From positions 23,876-64,497 of the forward strand of contig DUFN01000002.1 in the NCBI GenBank assembly GCA_013331935.1: a DNA stretch of 40,622 nucleotides, in the 5' to 3' direction. The notes under the pieces are model-generated. The model saw nothing but the letters and a program-made list of their open reading frames with translations. It ran no database searches and was not told the DNA's origin. Every line of letters starts with the position of its first letter. The first letter of the stretch is position 1. This document shows positions 5,048 through 24,763 of the stretch, piece by piece. The position numbers were made by a program, and so were the translations under genes. The DNA comes from Nanobdellota archaeon (GTDB lineage Archaea; Nanobdellota; Nanobdellia; UBA10117).

Positions 5048-5698
5048 CTATCTAATTAGGCATTCTTCATACATGTCTGGATGGTGCCCCATATGCTCGC
5101 GCCATTGTGCATCAGTGTAGCCTGGTGGAGTTGCACATTTATCATTAGGATTCTGTGCTTTAATTGCGGCTTGGTATTTTTCAGAACTGAAACTAGTTTC
5201 AGCAGAGTAAACTTCGTATGCAACAAATCCCAAAAATATCGCAACAAACACTACAATGGCGATTGTTATTTGTTTATCTGTGTTTTTTCCATCCTGCAAA
5301 ACGTGATGTGTATGTTTCGCCCGCTCTGCAAAATACAATGCTATTGCCGAAATAACAACCGCAAGCCCTGCCACCATGAAAACTGCAAAGTAGCCTTTCG
5401 CGAAGGGAAAGCCAGCCAGAAGCAGGCCGGCATTTGCCAAAAGCATGTGTTTTGAGATGCATTTGCCCATCCGGAAATAAAGCACAGTTGCGATAATTAG
5501 CATAGTTATGCCTATTGCCCAGAAGTATAATTGATACCGCGTCAGGAAGAACAATGGCATGCCCGTGATAAATACCCCGAAAAACGCAAGCATGGCAATT
5601 GCGGCAGTGCATACTGAGTGGCAGATATTGTAAGAGCTGATTATACTCATCCCGCCTGTTGCAGCATTCGCCACGCCGATTGCACTTTCTTTATTCAT
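5048..5698 (-). CDS. polytopic membrane protein, last gene of the redox cluster
   Basis: 216 residues if translation begins at the ATG at 5698. There are about six membrane segments, then a short soluble tail with PPGYTDAQW and a His pair (HMGHH) near the end. A CHSVC pair of cysteines (26 and 30) lies at the start of the first membrane helix, suggesting metal or thiol chemistry in the membrane. An in-frame upstream ATG at 5791 overlaps the doxX-like stop as ATGA, but the extra 31 residues are encoded by two strong hairpins and look non-coding, so I chose 5698. The gene contains one copy of the cluster palindrome (5188-5201), where it encodes E-T-S-F-S. Function is unknown. Confidence 0.6.
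   Translation of the reverse strand: MNKESAIGVANAATGGMSIISSYNICHSVCTAAIAMLAFFGVFITGMPLFFLTRYQLYFWAIGITMLIIATVLYFRMGKCISKHMLLANAGLLLAGFPFAKGYFAVFMVAGLAVVISAIALYFAERAKHTHHVLQDGKNTDKQITIAIVVFVAIFLGFVAYEVYSAETSFSSEKYQAAIKAQNPNDKCATPPGYTDAQWREHMGHHPDMYEECLIR
5188..5201. promoter_or_regulatory. operator-like palindrome TGAAACTAGTTTCA, copy 1
   Basis: Exact copy of the 14-bp palindrome found at 8709, 8776 and 8885, extended here to 16 bp (CTGAAACTAGTTTCAG, 5187-5202). It lies inside the coding sequence of the last gene of the cluster. Confidence 0.5.
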
Positions 5699-5707
5699 CC
5701 GAACCGC

Positions 5708-5776
5708 AAGGGGGCTCCGCCCCCTTTCAGTTTGAGGTTCTTCCTGATTTCCCCCGAGCGCAGTCCTCGACTGCGC
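5708..5776. repeat. two strong hairpins between the doxX-like gene and the next gene
   Basis: AAGGGGGC (5708-5715) pairs with GCCCCCTT (5719-5726) around a 3-base loop. GCGCAGTC (5758-5765) pairs perfectly with GACTGCGC (5769-5776) around CTC. Both fall in the possible N-terminal extension of the downstream gene. They may form an mRNA processing or attenuation site, or be a small palindromic insertion. Confidence 0.5.
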
Positions 5777-5787
5777 ATACATTTTTA

Positions 5788-6243
5788 TCATAATAATAAC
5801 CTAAACCATTTATTTTTTTCAACTATTTTTGTTTTTGCAAGATATTTATCAATGCCAATAAATTTTCCAGCCTCAAAAACAATTAGTGCGAATAAAACCG
5901 CGGCGTAAACTATGTGCTCTTCAATTAAGTTATGTTTGGGTGGAAACCGCGCAAGGTAAAACAAAAGCATCATCACAATTCCAAGAGATGAGGCTGTTTT
6001 TACGAGCAGGCCAAGCAGAAGGCACAGGCCAATCAGGAAAAGCCCCCACGCAACAAGCAGGCTGACTGCGGGATTGCCGGCCATGCCTGCGTAAAAGCTT
6101 TGAAATGGCCCATAAGCAACCTTTGTCAGGAAAGAATCTGCGCTGAACTTTGGGTTTGTTATGTCTTGCCAGCCAGGAATAATAAATATAATTCCGATTA
6201 AGATTCTTAAAATAAAAATTGGAATTTTATTTATCCGCAGCAT
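5788..6243 (-). CDS. DoxX-family membrane protein
   Basis: About 151 residues with four membrane segments in the DoxX pattern: ILRILIGIIFIIPGWQDI at the start, a central pair of helices with LLLGLLVKTASSLG, and a last helix before a basic tail. DoxX proteins include the small subunit of archaeal thiosulfate:quinone oxidoreductase and other membrane redox partners. The start is uncertain. I chose the ATG at 6243, which has GGGAG about 11 bases upstream and matches the usual family N-terminus; a TTG at 6294 would overlap the upstream stop and add 17 residues. It sits in the cluster with rhodanese and PCYCGC-like genes, which favours a sulfur or thiol role. Confidence 0.75.
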   Translation of the reverse strand: MLRINKIPIFILRILIGIIFIIPGWQDITNPKFSADSFLTKVAYGPFQSFYAGMAGNPAVSLLVAWGLFLIGLCLLLGLLVKTASSLGIVMMLLFYLARFPPKHNLIEEHIVYAAVLFALIVFEAGKFIGIDKYLAKTKIVEKNKWFRLLL

Positions 6244-6286
6244 TCTTTTATCTTCTCCCACAATTTTTGTAACCAACTTTTTATTT

Positions 6287-6607
6287 TTAGCCAATCCATT
6301 TTAGCAAATAATAAACTACCGTTGTTCCGGCAATTATTACAATTATCTTGAAACCTTTAAGTTTTTCGTTTTTTTCCATTACATGCGTTGCGCCTGCAAT
6401 GCTCTGGCCCATTAGGATTGCCAGCAGTAGTTGTGTTTTCACAACAGAAAAAATATTCAGTAATAATAGAATAATCCATGTACTGACAACTGCCGCGCAG
6501 ACTGCACAGATATTTTTATCAAATCTCTTATCGATAATTGGTTTTATGGCCAGCCACGCAAAAAATAACCCTGCAATTGCCGCGAGTACGTAAATTATTA
6601 CATCCAT
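6287..6607 (-). CDS. small membrane protein of the redox cluster
   Basis: 106 residues with about four membrane segments and a pair of cysteines in NICAVCAAVVS at the cytoplasm/membrane boundary of the second segment. The ATG at 6607 overlaps the end of the upstream gene by 10 bases, indicating translational coupling; a longer in-frame version would extend deep into that gene and is unlikely. Family not recognised. The Cys-x2-Cys in a membrane context is shared with its neighbours. Confidence 0.55.
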   Translation of the reverse strand: MDVIIYVLAAIAGLFFAWLAIKPIIDKRFDKNICAVCAAVVSTWIILLLLNIFSVVKTQLLLAILMGQSIAGATHVMEKNEKLKGFKIIVIIAGTTVVYYLLKWIG

Positions 6608-7134
6608 TTTATCACGCCCCACAAAAATGCGGATAATGCTGCGCAGGCAATCACGACGAAAGAAACACCTTGGAATGGCCAAAGAGATTTGTTATTGCGG
6701 TTTTCTTTTATTGCATCGCTCAGCCACAATGCAAACCAAATGCCAAGCGTTCCGAAAAGAATTCCTGTCAGAAGTTTGTCAATACCAAACACGCCAAGGC
6801 CAAGCATTGCGTGATGCTCTGGCATGCTCTTGACCATGTCTACGTTTGTTATGAGGCCTGCCGCGTAAAACGGAATTACTGTGAGAAAGAATGAAGCCAC
6901 GATAAATGCGGCGTCCTGAAATTTGAAATTAATTTTTTTCTTGGCAAGCTTGCTGAACCACAATGCTGTTGATGCAACCATTGCGCCCATGAAAAGCCCA
7001 GAGATGCTATCATCAACACCGAACACACGCGCAAGCGCAACACCGCCGATTGCTGCGCCTGTGCAGAGTGGGCAGTGCGCGCGTACAGAACTGATTAGAG
7101 TTAAAAATAAAGGAAAGAGAAAAAACTTTTTCAT
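6598..7134 (-). CDS. secreted-end CPLC membrane protein
   Basis: 178 residues. A signal-like helix (3-18) ends in RAHCPLCTGAA, placing a His-Cys-x2-Cys motif (His20, Cys21, Cys24) at the outer membrane face, followed by about four more membrane segments. The ATG at 7134 follows the rhodanese stop as TAA-A-ATG, so the two are coupled; the longer in-frame reading inside the rhodanese gene was rejected. The exposed CxxC suggests disulfide or metal exchange with the rhodanese and the PCYCGC-like protein. No named family is recognised. Confidence 0.6.
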   Translation of the reverse strand: MKKFFLFPLFLTLISSVRAHCPLCTGAAIGGVALARVFGVDDSISGLFMGAMVASTALWFSKLAKKKINFKFQDAAFIVASFFLTVIPFYAAGLITNVDMVKSMPEHHAMLGLGVFGIDKLLTGILFGTLGIWFALWLSDAIKENRNNKSLWPFQGVSFVVIACAALSAFLWGVIKWM

Positions 7135-7135
7135 T

Positions 7136-7735
7136 TTAACAGCCAAATTCCTCCGTAACTGTGCAGCCAGAATTATTATTATCTGTTGCTGACATCGGCA
7201 CAGATTCAATATAATCTTCGGCTTTTGTTAAGTTCCATTCGTGCTCGTGGTTCCATAAAGTCCAAGAATAACGCCATTCATTCCAACCTATGCCTAAATG
7301 CTGCACATAAATACCATTTTCCGCAAGCATTAGGCCGATTTTTCTGCCAGTCATGCATGGCACACTGTAGCAGTAAACAATTATTTCTTTGCCCGGATTT
7401 TTTTCTTTCAACTTTGCAAAAGAATTTACTATCCGTTCTTCATCTTTGTAAGCAGACGTATCCGGATCTTTGTACGCAGGTATGTTTATTGCGCCTTTGA
7501 TATGTCCATTGGCATATTCCTGTGTGCTTCTTAAATCCACTAAAATGAAGCTGTCGTCGTTGCTATCTATTGCCTTGCGGACGCTGTGCGGGCTCACGTG
7601 GACAGCATTTTCAATCTCGTAAAATTCTTTAATTAATTTTTCTTTTGAAAATTGTTTGTCTATTACATAAAATGTAGCGCTTCCAATTGCGCTGCTTAAA
7701 ATTGCAACAATAAAAAATAAAAAAATCTGTTTCAT
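7136..7735 (-). CDS. membrane-anchored rhodanese (sulfurtransferase)
   Basis: 199 residues: an N-terminal membrane anchor (about 2-23), a single rhodanese domain (about 45-165) and a short tail. Rhodanese features are FILVDLRSTQEYANGHIKGAINIP (the conserved Asp-Arg and the His-Ile-x-Gly-Ala segment) and an active loop YCYSVPCMTGRK containing Cys122 and Cys127, longer than the usual CxxGxR loop. Rhodaneses carry a cysteine persulfide. The domain is predicted outside the cell because of the anchor. The tail has Cys191 and ends in Gly-Cys, a feature shared with the two upstream genes. It starts 3 bases after the upstream stop. Confidence 0.88.
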   Translation of the reverse strand: MKQIFLFFIVAILSSAIGSATFYVIDKQFSKEKLIKEFYEIENAVHVSPHSVRKAIDSNDDSFILVDLRSTQEYANGHIKGAINIPAYKDPDTSAYKDEERIVNSFAKLKEKNPGKEIIVYCYSVPCMTGRKIGLMLAENGIYVQHLGIGWNEWRYSWTLWNHEHEWNLTKAEDYIESVPMSATDNNNSGCTVTEEFGC

Positions 7736-7738
7736 TTG

Positions 7739-7945
7739 CTAGCAGCCGCCAACCATTGCTGACTGCGCTGGCGCTTGCGGTGCCTGCTGTTGTGCAGGTG
7801 CCTGCGCTTGTGTTTGGTATGCGCTTCCCGCGCTTATTGTTGCGCCGCCGAGCTGTGCCTTTATGTTGGCCAGCTCAATTGTTTGTATGCCTGCAAAGAT
7901 AATCAGGCCTATTATTACAATTGTCAATACAATATTTTTTTCCAT
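7739..7945 (-). CDS. 68-residue anchored protein ending in MVGGC
   Basis: One membrane helix (about 5-24), then a short linker, an Ala/Gln/Pro-rich stretch (about 43-62) and the C-terminal MVGGC. There are no other cysteines. It lies between the PCYCGC-like gene and the rhodanese with gaps of 9 and 3 bases, so it is real and co-transcribed. The low-complexity stalk would place the terminal Cys away from the membrane, as a flexible thiol arm. The same MVGGC ends the upstream protein. Function unknown; a thiol carrier or lipid/metal attachment is inference. Confidence 0.6.
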   Translation of the reverse strand: MEKNIVLTIVIIGLIIFAGIQTIELANIKAQLGGATISAGSAYQTQAQAPAQQQAPQAPAQSAMVGGC

Positions 7946-7954
7946 TTTAATTCC

Positions 7955-8662
7955 TTAACAACCTCCTACCATAGAACCGCCTTGTGTTCCTTTTTCAATT
8001 CCTCTGTATTTGTTTGACGCAAGGTTTATGTAATTCATTTCAATTCCCTGCGAGCGCATAATATCCGCCTTTTGCTGCATGATTCCGGGGAAGAACAGCG
8101 TTTTCCACTTTCCGAGTTCCTCAAGGACTGCATCGTTGCTCATTTCCGGATGTTTTGTCAGAAGATATTTTGCTAATCCGCGCATCGCAAAGCTGTGTGC
8201 GCATCCGCAGGCAGGCTTGCCATCATCAAATATAATTGACTTTGCACCGCAGCAGTATTCGCATGAAATTTGCGAGACGATTTTTACATATCTGCTTAGT
8301 TTTTCGCCAGATAGTTGCAGTGACCTGTCAAAGTTTCCCATCACAGTAATTGTTGCGTCCGCCTTTTTCGGATCGTTTGGCGAAATATCATCATACCTTA
8401 TTTTTAGTTCGCTTCCGTAGACTGCGGGCGTGCCAGTAGGAATCACACTTGCGCCGGTTGCAATTGTTTGGGTTGCAGTGTTTTCTGTGCCAGACGTAAT
8501 GAGCGCTTTTGAAATGCCTGATATCTGGTACTGGTTAAACAGCAATACAATTGCGGCTAATACGAGCAGGCCAATAAGCAGGCTGGACGGCTTCTCGTGG
8601 CTTTTCTTGCCTTCGGCTTTAGTTTCTTTATGTTCTCCGTGTTCTTCGCAACAATCTGTCAT
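7955..8662 (-). CDS. PCYCGC-like membrane-anchored cysteine protein ending in MVGGC
   Basis: 235 residues from the ATG at 8662 (a GTG at 8671 is also in frame). The cytoplasmic N-terminus carries a Cys pair and His residues (TDCCEEHGEH), followed by one membrane helix (about 27-45). The outer part has a cysteine-rich core, SCEYCCGA (Cys134, 137, 138) and PACGCAHS (Cys152, 154, His156), resembling the PCYCGC-motif family of putative metal-binding lipoproteins, and a C-terminal GGSMVGGC. It is the first structural gene of the cluster. Its TATA box (AGATATATATGC, complement of about 8689-8700) lies within 10 bases of the operator palindrome at 8709-8722. Confidence 0.7.
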   Translation of the reverse strand: MTDCCEEHGEHKETKAEGKKSHEKPSSLLIGLLVLAAIVLLFNQYQISGISKALITSGTENTATQTIATGASVIPTGTPAVYGSELKIRYDDISPNDPKKADATITVMGNFDRSLQLSGEKLSRYVKIVSQISCEYCCGAKSIIFDDGKPACGCAHSFAMRGLAKYLLTKHPEMSNDAVLEELGKWKTLFFPGIMQQKADIMRSQGIEMNYINLASNKYRGIEKGTQGGSMVGGC

Positions 8663-8707
8663 TTTTATCACATAAATCTAAGAAAGAAACAGCATATATA
8701 TCTGCTG

Positions 8708-8723
8708 GTGAAACTAGTTTCAC
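8708..8723. promoter_or_regulatory. operator-like palindrome, copy 2, at the cluster promoter
   Basis: GTGAAACTAGTTTCAC, a perfect 16-bp palindrome, sits immediately upstream of the TATA box of the PCYCGC-like gene. A further half-site GTGAAAC occurs at 8730-8736. The position fits a regulator acting at this promoter. Confidence 0.65.
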
Positions 8724-8775
8724 ATCCCTGTGAAACCTCAAAAAGAAAACTGCGGGCTCTATGAACTCGCTAAAC

Positions 8776-8789
8776 TGAAACTAGTTTCA
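8776..8789. promoter_or_regulatory. operator-like palindrome, copy 3, over the regulator stop codon
   Basis: Exact TGAAACTAGTTTCA. Its last three bases are the stop codon of the regulator gene (complement of 8787-8789). It is 67 bases from the copy at 8709. Confidence 0.6.
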
Positions 8790-9287
8790 TTTCAGCACAA
8801 TAATATTAGTCATGCCTCTTCTGCGCCTTTCAAGAACATTCATCATCTCCAGCTTGTCTAATATGCGCGTAATCTTGACCTTGCTGAAACTAGTTTCATT
8901 TACCAAGTCAGACTGGTATGCCGAGCCGCCCTTACCTTTTAGTATACCGTAGATTTTCTTTTCATCTTCGTCAAGTTTTGTTAAATCAATCTGTTTGAAT
9001 TCTTTTTTCTCTTCCATAATTAAAGGCGGTTTCTCTGCAGGCATGAAGCTAAGGTAAATCCCTGCACCAAGCATCAGGAAGCCGATCCCGAAAGCAAGGA
9101 CAAGCATCCAAGATGTACTATTGCTGTGTACGGGGCACAGATTCATGTCCATTCCGCTCTTGCTATAACTGTCGCACAGGGCCGCAGACTGCGTGTCAAA
9201 ATCTGCCTTTACGAAAACAAGTATGACTAATAGAAAGATGGCAATGCCAGCTAGCACATAGCCGAGGGTTTTATGAGTGATTTCCAT
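8787..9287 (-). CDS. membrane-anchored winged-helix transcription regulator
   Basis: 166 residues: two membrane segments (about 8-28 and 58-82) with a short outer loop holding two cysteines (ALCDSYS and NLCPVHS), then a cytoplasmic winged helix-turn-helix (about 100-166) of MarR-like type (KIYGILKGKGG, SDLVNETSFSKVKITRILDKLEMMNVLERRRRG). The loop cysteines could sense redox state or metal and signal across the membrane to the DNA-binding domain. It heads the operon and has its own TATA box (9309-9316). The gene carries one palindrome copy in its coding sequence (8885-8898) and one over its stop, suggesting autoregulation. Membrane-tethered wHTH regulators are common in archaea. Confidence 0.8.
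   Translation of the reverse strand: MEITHKTLGYVLAGIAIFLLVILVFVKADFDTQSAALCDSYSKSGMDMNLCPVHSNSTSWMLVLAFGIGFLMLGAGIYLSFMPAEKPPLIMEEKKEFKQIDLTKLDEDEKKIYGILKGKGGSAYQSDLVNETSFSKVKITRILDKLEMMNVLERRRRGMTNIIVLK
8885..8898. promoter_or_regulatory. operator-like palindrome, copy 4, inside the regulator gene
   Basis: Exact TGAAACTAGTTTCA within the recognition part of the regulator's winged helix, encoding E-T-S-F-S on the minus strand. It could be an autoregulatory roadblock site. Confidence 0.45.
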
Positions 9288-23578: not shown

Positions 23579-24763
23579 ATGAAACCCACTGACATTAGAG
23601 CCATAAAGATATTGAATTCCCTTGCAAAGCCAGCCATCGCAGTCAGAGTTAAGGCGGAAACATCTGAAGGCTGGGGTGCTGCGCCATCAGGAACTTCCAA
23701 AAGTTCATTTGAAGTGCCGGAATTTATTCAGGATGTGGATTTGACAATCGAACTGTTCAACAATTACGCAAAAAAAATAATTGATTTTAATTTCCAAAGC
23801 TTCGATGACTTAGAAGAGGTTGAAAAGGTAATAAATGTTGGAAATGTTGGCGGCTCCGCAGTAATCGCATTGGAATACGCGATGCTCAACGCACTCGCAC
23901 AGGAACGCAAGCGCCCCTTATGGAAAATACTTAACCCGAACGCAAAAACCTTTCCGAGAATTTTAGCTAATGTTGTCGGCGGAGGACAGCATGCCACAAA
24001 TTCAATTGACATACAGGAGATTTTAGTGTCTCCGACAGAAAAAAGCGTTAGCGAAGCAATCTTCACTGCTTCTGAAATTTACAACAAGGTAAAGTTTGAG
24101 CTGGCAAAAAAAGATAAGCACTTCCTCGGCGGAAGGACTGCTGAAGGCGCATGGACAACAAGCCTGCCCGATGAAACAGCTTTAGAGATTGTTGACAGAA
24201 CTGCGAATAAGCACAAATCAGAAGTCGGAATAGATATGGCTGCGACGAGTTTATTTGTCAGAGGCAAATATCTCTGGAAAAACTTTTCGAGAAAGCAGAA
24301 AGGGATTCATGCTGATGAAAAGAAACATATTGAATTAATGGAGCATATTTCAAATAGATTCCATTTATTTTATATTGAAGACCCGCTCCATCAGGATGCC
24401 TACAAGGCATTTTCAGATTTCAATAAATTATCAAATAAATATTCGCGGAAATTAGTCTGCGGAGACGATTTAATTTCAACAAACCTATCAAGATTAAAAG
24501 TTGCAGCAGGCCAGAATTCTATAAACGCTGTAATTATAAAACCAAACCAGATTGGCTCGCTTTTCAAGGCAAAACAGGTTTTGGACTATGCAAGAAAGAA
24601 CAATATTGTTCCGGTTCTTTCACACAGGTCAGGAGAAACTAATGATTCCATTCTCGCACACCTTGCGTTTGCATGGCAAGCCCCCTTCGTGAAGTTCGGG
24701 CTGGCTGGCGGTGAACGCACGGCAAAATTGAATGAATTGATAAAAATAGAGCAAGGTTTGTGA
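23579..24763 (+). CDS. eno: enolase
   Basis: 394 residues, slightly short for enolase (usually 410-430). Converts 2-phosphoglycerate to phosphoenolpyruvate in glycolysis/gluconeogenesis. The mobile Ser loop (PSGTSKSSFEV), magnesium ligands in VGIDMAATS, YIEDPLHQD and VCGDDLIS, the catalytic Lys in AVIIKPNQIGSL and the HRSGETND motif are all present. The usual NVGDEGGF loop is replaced by a shorter GGRTAEGAWTTS, which keeps one Glu. A TATA box (CTTAAAAAC, 23550-23558) lies 21-29 bases upstream. It probably ends a transcription unit. Confidence 0.92.
   Translation: MKPTDIRAIKILNSLAKPAIAVRVKAETSEGWGAAPSGTSKSSFEVPEFIQDVDLTIELFNNYAKKIIDFNFQSFDDLEEVEKVINVGNVGGSAVIALEYAMLNALAQERKRPLWKILNPNAKTFPRILANVVGGGQHATNSIDIQEILVSPTEKSVSEAIFTASEIYNKVKFELAKKDKHFLGGRTAEGAWTTSLPDETALEIVDRTANKHKSEVGIDMAATSLFVRGKYLWKNFSRKQKGIHADEKKHIELMEHISNRFHLFYIEDPLHQDAYKAFSDFNKLSNKYSRKLVCGDDLISTNLSRLKVAAGQNSINAVIIKPNQIGSLFKAKQVLDYARKNNIVPVLSHRSGETNDSILAHLAFAWQAPFVKFGLAGGERTAKLNELIKIEQGL

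Follow-up and report, generated by a model that had tools for sequence, protein, structure and literature searches.

What is the task of eight tightly spaced genes, nearly all coding for membrane proteins, in a very small, uncultured archaeon? The genes are found on contig DUFN01000002.1 of a Nanobdellota archaeon (GenBank assembly GCA_013331935.1; genome of 769 kb, 88% complete), within a stretch of 40,622 nucleotides (positions 23,876–64,497 of the forward strand), here called the window, in whose coordinates positions are given unless a locus is named. They are eight minus-strand open reading frames between 5048 and 9287, numbered from p8, the most upstream, to p1, the last. A first-pass annotation had suggested that together they move sulfane sulfur, disulfides or a soft metal across the membrane under redox control. 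Sequence comparison indicates that these genes are this genome's version of a module that is conserved and widespread in DPANN archaea, and we predict, with a probability of about 0.8, that p8–p1 serve Cu(I)/Ag(I) homeostasis, controlled by a winged-helix regulator that is anchored in the membrane and senses outward.

Organization of the locus

The predicted genes are the following:
8787–9287, minus strand: p8, membrane-tethered winged-helix regulator of subtype A (DUF7343, PF24034, E 1.1e-11, and topology)
7955–8671, minus strand: p7, anchored extracytoplasmic protein with CxxCCG...CGCxH and a C-terminal MVGGC (open reading frame from GTG at 8671)
7739–7945, minus strand: p6, 68-residue N-anchored protein ending in MVGGC
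7136–7735, minus strand: p5, anchored rhodanese (PF00581, E 8e-17, 61.9 bits against a cut-off of 22.2)
6598–7134, minus strand: p4, membrane protein with predicted mature N-terminus HCPLC
6287–6607, minus strand: p3, small membrane protein with CAVC
5788–6294, minus strand: p2, DoxX-family membrane protein (PF07681, 31.5 bits, E 2.8e-7)
5048–5791, minus strand: p1, fusion of p1a (transmembrane, CHSVC) and p1b (an anchored CATPPGYTDAQWREHMGHHPDMYEECL domain), which are separate genes in relatives

Successive genes from p7 to p1 are separated by 9, 3, -2, -10, -8 and -4 nucleotides, so p7–p1 is one tight operon; p8 sits 124 nucleotides upstream of p7. Hydropathy prediction for the eight open reading frames is consistent with membrane anchoring, and p7, p6 and p5 are each predicted to have one N-terminal transmembrane segment. 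In family profile scans no match above cut-off was obtained for p1, p3, p4, p6 and p7. Most of the gene-by-gene description in the first-pass annotation proved sound: the tight, membrane-linked gene set itself, a winged helix-turn-helix regulator with two outer cysteines (p8), the 68-residue anchored protein, the anchored rhodanese, a membrane protein with HCPLC (directly behind a signal-peptide-like segment of p4), two further membrane proteins with CxxC or CxxxC motifs (p3 and p1) and the DoxX protein.

Recurrence of the module

A search of the GTDB collection gave 150 stretches with a relative of p7. Of these, 80 were kept as loci, many of them cut by contig ends. The loci are titled Woesearchaeota, Pacearchaeota, Aenigmatarchaeota, Diapherotrites, Micrarchaeota and similar, these titles being depositors' names. 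p7 is present in 20 of the 111 genomes searched as relatives and in 78 of the 279 genomes of the phylum, both p7 subfamilies counted. The recurring order is regulator–p7–p6–(CopG/DUF411)–HCPLC protein–p3 or a helical protein–p1a–p1b, with homologues of p6 in 79 loci, of the regulator in 70, of p4 in 59, of p1b in 30 and of p3 in 25. A return of the same gene order with the same cysteine motifs in archaeal genomes, which the earlier annotation had named as its check, was thus found in the 80 loci, and the arrangement is therefore not a matter of chance.

Association with copper genes

At least one copper marker (DUF411, P-type ATPase, cupredoxin or HMA) is present in 65 of the 80 loci. About half of the relatives (41 of 80) have a DUF411 gene, with CGCC and a Met-rich motif, within the module. 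These neighbours match PF04214 (E 5.8e-25) and also 6WIS (E 1.7e-20), a DUF411 protein of solved structure. Section 6.5 of PMC7558416 describes that protein as CopG, which confers copper resistance and whose CxCC motif binds a tetranuclear copper cluster. P-type ATPases are listed for 262 of the 279 genomes, about two per genome of around 1 Mb; one would be expected in an estimated 3% or so of random 16.6-kb stretches and is observed in 30 of the 80 loci. Cu(I)-type CPC, YN and MxxSS motifs are present in 19–21 of the 22 full-length ATPases of the loci. Cupredoxins occur in 26 loci and HMA proteins in 20; further neighbours are DsbD/DsbA, SHOCT and DUF302 genes. Across the 279 genomes, p7 is present in 43 of the 46 with DUF411, where 12.9 would be expected (p 2e-25), and 23 of 46 DUF411 matches are located within 3 kb of a p7 match. 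Together with a shared palindrome (see below), this neighbourhood and co-occurrence, all of it evidence of association, support the narrowing of the soft metal to copper. Of the earlier proposal we keep the handling of a soft metal at the membrane by a system with a tethered regulator; sulfane sulfur is not supported as the general function.

Handling of sulfane sulfur, as persulfide or thiosulfate, would be consistent with the rhodanese p5, whose kind carries persulfide and which has a plausible catalytic cysteine and a cysteine-bearing tail, and with p2, a real family match to DoxX, which resembles thiosulfate:quinone oxidoreductase. Rhodaneses of the p5 type are present in only 2–3 of the 80 loci, however, DoxX is not conserved, and among the genes that recur nearby we noticed no enzyme acting on persulfide or thiosulfate. 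The explanation is weak, since both the rhodanese and DoxX are local extras seldom found in the module and p7 does not belong to the PCYCGC proteins; we consider it very improbable.

A second possibility is an extracytoplasmic disulfide or thiol-redox relay, in which the CxxC proteins, the rhodanese and DoxX would move disulfides or electrons across the membrane, the copper genes being nearby since copper damages thiols. DsbA (21 of 80 loci), DsbD-HMA, thioredoxin-like and glutaredoxin-Sap genes are indeed common neighbours, and relatives of p7 with a short tail lie beside CcdA/DsbD-like and thioredoxin-like genes, not beside CopA. But DUF411, the Cu(I)-ATPase, cupredoxin and HMA are at least equally frequent, HMA/DsbD/CopA operons carry the palindrome in genomes that lack p7, and the CxxCCG/CGCxH motifs of p7, with their invariant histidine, resemble a metal-binding set. 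As the principal role of the module such a relay is possible, if unlikely; as a partner activity, disulfide chemistry is plausible, because DsbA, DsbD/CcdA and thioredoxin-like genes are such frequent neighbours.

The copper might also be wanted rather than unwanted, the module serving copper acquisition or the metallation of an extracytoplasmic cuproenzyme and not detoxification. The frequent cupredoxins, a multicopper oxidase in one related locus (L149) and the outward Cys/His proteins, which look like metallochaperones, would fit; on the other side, no oxidase or other cuproenzyme is found among the recurrent neighbours, and the export ATPases and CopG suggest that copper is present in excess. 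We think this distinctly unlikely as an alternative. The two roles are not exclusive, because CopG itself has also been proposed to transfer copper, according to passages of PMC7558416.

The palindrome and the regulator

Four exact copies of the palindrome TGAAACTAGTTTCA are present in the window, against 0.28 expected with up to two mismatches:
8709–8722, unstranded: predicted to be the operator for p7–p1, 48 nucleotides before p7, with the TATA-like ATATATAT close behind it
8776–8789, unstranded: second copy, overlapping the p8 stop codon
8885–8898, unstranded: third copy, within the p8 coding region, encoding ETSF
5188–5201, unstranded: fourth copy, within p1 between the p1a and p1b parts, encoding ETSF

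A perfect palindrome with the core GAAACTAGTTTC is found upstream of p7 in about 45 of the 80 loci, usually at -50 to -52 from the start of the p7 open reading frame; after shuffling, at most three loci share any such repeat. Its presence follows the type of regulator. The exact core is found in 37 of 48 subtype-A loci versus 0 of 11 subtype-B loci (Fisher p 2.5e-6, typable regulators only), a comparison that is exploratory because the tail motifs setting the subtypes A and B were picked after the loci had been seen. When up to two mismatches are allowed within 220 nucleotides upstream of p7, 45 of 53 subtype-A loci have the site, versus 0 of 53 shuffled subtype-A upstream regions at up to three mismatches. 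Subtype-B regulators, with an LSKTKLS-like tail, are found in L050, L051, L055, L056, L061, L089, L093, L116, L118 and L128, and in none of these loci was the exact palindrome found. In a search for a subtype-B operator, TGAACAAT/TGAACGAT recurs weakly, overall not above shuffle level; it may be the operator of these regulators.

In genome-wide pattern searches, the exact palindrome was found in 69 of the 279 genomes of the phylum, mostly once in each, and a reversed control in 2. Where the genome has a listed ATPase position, 27 of 47 copies lie within 6 kb of a P-type ATPase (binomial probability 1e-32, at about 2% each). Other genes behind the palindrome encode thioredoxin-like, HMA, DsbD, PCYCGC and Met-rich transmembrane proteins and the regulator. 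In related genomes, including those without p7, it stands upstream of HMA–DsbD–CopA operons, and in the examples fetched, many without p7, it is located 51–87 nucleotides before HMA, DsbD-HMA, SHOCT or DUF411 genes. These examples adjoin a homologous tethered regulator, and 13 of their 13 ATPases have Cu(I) motifs. We infer that TGAAACTAGTTTCA is the site bound by p8. No mention of GAAACTAGTTTC was found in the literature searched.

The regulator p8 contains two transmembrane segments, with its sole two cysteines, C38 and C51, in the loop between them (LCDSYSKSGMDMNLCPVH), and a C-terminal winged helix-turn-helix domain that matches the DUF7343/MarR-type profile. The tail of subtype A is RRRRGMTNIIVLK. 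Nearly all homologues have exactly two cysteines in the outer loop, which could be copper ligands or a disulfide pair; the redox control suggested by the earlier annotation is thus possible through p8.

Several observations count against the copper reading. The window contains no CopA, DUF411 or other copper gene of known function, so that linkage to a Cu(I) ATPase, chaperone or CopG, present in 65 of 80 relatives, is lacking in the window itself. A PF04214 search found no DUF411 in its genome, and the single copper-type ATPase (CopA) of the genome is on another contig, with no palindrome upstream (best match with 5 mismatches), whereas related genomes do share the site with copper-efflux genes. 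The other five exact palindromes of the genome are not near recognisable copper genes, and three of them lie in coding sequence. Finally, the counts overstate independence, because the loci are phylogenetically related and binning errors of metagenome-assembled genomes lower it further.

The genome of the window contains the exact palindrome nine times, where its composition would predict about 0.007 copies and other genomes usually have one. The copies in coding regions (5188–5201 and 8885–8898 in the window, 5243 in L139) encode Glu-Thr-Ser-Phe. Short secreted Cys/Gly-rich proteins with metallothionein-like tails such as CGGGCGVSSCGCGR are encoded at L158:4066-4284 and L161:3814-4053, by genes that start 52–87 nucleotides behind a palindrome and beside a tethered regulator. 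A family of Met-rich membrane proteins with C-M-S/T-G-M-M-I-G-M-T-I-G-M is also found behind the palindrome (L103:12001-12684, L115:11333-12019, L151:5536-6219 and L159:4719-5399); one relative was scanned and gave no Pfam family above cut-off.

Proteins encoded by the operon

The likely start codon of p7 is the ATG at 8662 rather than the GTG at 8671. In the alignment of relatives, CxxCCG and CGCxH are invariant across the family, in the window as ISCEYCCG and ACGCAHS. The first-pass label of p7 as PCYCGC-like came down to a resemblance of motifs: there is no Pfam match to PF13798 at E<1, the two sequences just given stand in place of a PCYCGC motif, and comparison with seven archaeal PCYCGC proteins derived from the loci gave an hhalign probability of 1.8%. 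A paper that names PCYCGC states no function for it. The AlphaFold2 model of p7 is confident, with a predicted local distance difference test score (pLDDT) of 86.6; no PDB sequence relatives and no fold relatives at E<0.9 were found. For p7 and p4, plasmids gave no match. A C-terminal MVGGC is present in 75 of 81 p7-family and 94 of 100 p6-family open reading frames. The 80 loci contain 141 open reading frames ending in GGC, all but one in the p7 and p6 clusters, the remaining one being p6-like. The short-tail relatives of p7 (L038–L046), most of them ending in LPGMVGGC and often beside the thiol-related genes mentioned above, may form a second module, whose role would concern thiols and not copper. 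A p7 with 49% identity in L123, a GTDB contig titled 'Bacteroidetes', probably belongs to a mis-binned archaeal contig.

All 54 members of the p4 family have the HC..C motif; position -1 before it is Ala in 53 of them, and position -3 is Val or Ala in 50. This pattern looks like a signal-peptidase site that would leave histidine as the mature N-terminus. An N-terminal histidine is a known copper ligand, in the histidine brace. The structure model of p4 (pLDDT 84.7) has no fold relatives at E<0.9. The p3 open reading frame opens at 6682, with the likely start at the ATG at 6607. Behind p4, the same slot is occupied by p3 in 18 loci and in 35 by a soluble protein, probably helical, whose C-terminus is a CC tail, with neither or both in none, a strict exchange at one operon position.

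The rhodanese p5 has a predicted catalytic cysteine at the active-loop position (YCYSVPCMTGR); its loop, CYSVPC, contains a second cysteine, and its C-terminal tail is SGCTVTEEFGC. Clear orthologues with the same tail are found in L052 and L087, and p5 occupies the slot held by CopG/DUF411 in most relatives. DoxX (p2) belongs to no cluster common to four or more loci and is a local addition; on the side of thiosulfate:quinone oxidoreductase a DoxX-type protein alone was found, no search having been aimed at DoxA. p1a and p1b are two separate genes in L027, L028 and L029. The p1b motif, GYTxxxWxxHMSHHPDxYxxCL, is strongly conserved, in relatives as a separate small anchored protein, for which no family name was found.

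Proposed working of the module

In the copper homeostasis module that we propose, p8 would sense an excess of copper outside the cell, or the oxidation of thiols that copper drives there, through its outer loop with two cysteines and Met and His residues, and its cytoplasmic winged helix would act on TGAAACTAGTTTCA. In archaeal promoters, a site at the upstream edge of the region of the B recognition element (BRE) and TATA box suits an activator, although repression is possible. Because the copy at 8709–8722 lies just upstream of this region of the p7 operon, abutting it and directly upstream of ATATATAT, p8 would most likely be an activator. The operon would then yield outward-facing Cys/His/Met proteins, p7 with its set of five cysteines and one histidine, p6, p4, p3 and p1, predicted to bind Cu(I) or Cu(II) at the outer membrane face. 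Copper might be passed between partners through the flexible MVGGC tails and kept reduced or sequestered, while copper in the cytoplasm would be cleared by a Cu(I)-exporting ATPase whose gene lies elsewhere in the genome. Tentatively, and with the balance somewhat against it, p7, p6, p4 and p1 may be a new outer-face copper relay of DPANN archaea, with capture by the N-terminal HCPLC that signal-peptide cleavage would expose, transfer by MVGGC tails and a one-component membrane regulator reading outside copper.

Comparison with known systems

Much of the diversity of archaea belongs to the DPANN group, in which many genes have no assigned function. The module would give a likely function, a regulator, an operator and a testable metal to several unnamed protein families, which occur in over a quarter of the sampled genomes of one phylum. 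It is apparently undescribed: the literature searched contains no description of the p7 module or palindrome, which is not proof of novelty.

The passages of PMC5498576 on archaeal copper fitness islands describe a CopA ATPase, a TRASH/YHS metallochaperone and an Lrp/AsnC-type regulator; in the islands of Cuniculiplasma and the ARMAN-like Mia14, SHOCT and DUF302 genes are neighbours. As in these islands, a copper ATPase, SHOCT and DUF302 recur around the p7 module. The module differs in its regulator, a membrane-tethered DUF7343 winged helix-turn-helix protein and not Lrp/AsnC, and in its core of p7, p6, p4 and p1, unmentioned in those passages. CopG/DUF411 (6WIS) is part of the module in about half of the relatives, whereas the genome of the window is without it and has the rhodanese in its slot. 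Like the PCYCGC family PF13798, p7 is an anchored extracytoplasmic protein with cysteine motifs, but without detectable homology, and true PCYCGC genes are separate neighbours in 8 loci of the module. p2 shares the DoxX family with HvfX, the DoxX-like protein of operons for copper-binding ribosomally synthesized and post-translationally modified peptides (NF050144), with a weak match of 21 bits against a cut-off of 80 bits. Finally, p8 resembles the transmembrane transcription regulators (PMC10269533) in being a one-component system, with transmembrane segments and a DNA-binding domain in a single chain. Unlike the regulators of that survey, which makes no mention of copper, cysteine or DPANN, p8 has a probable ligand loop and a proposed operator, and it is a candidate archaeal copper sensor working from the membrane on a defined 14-bp site.

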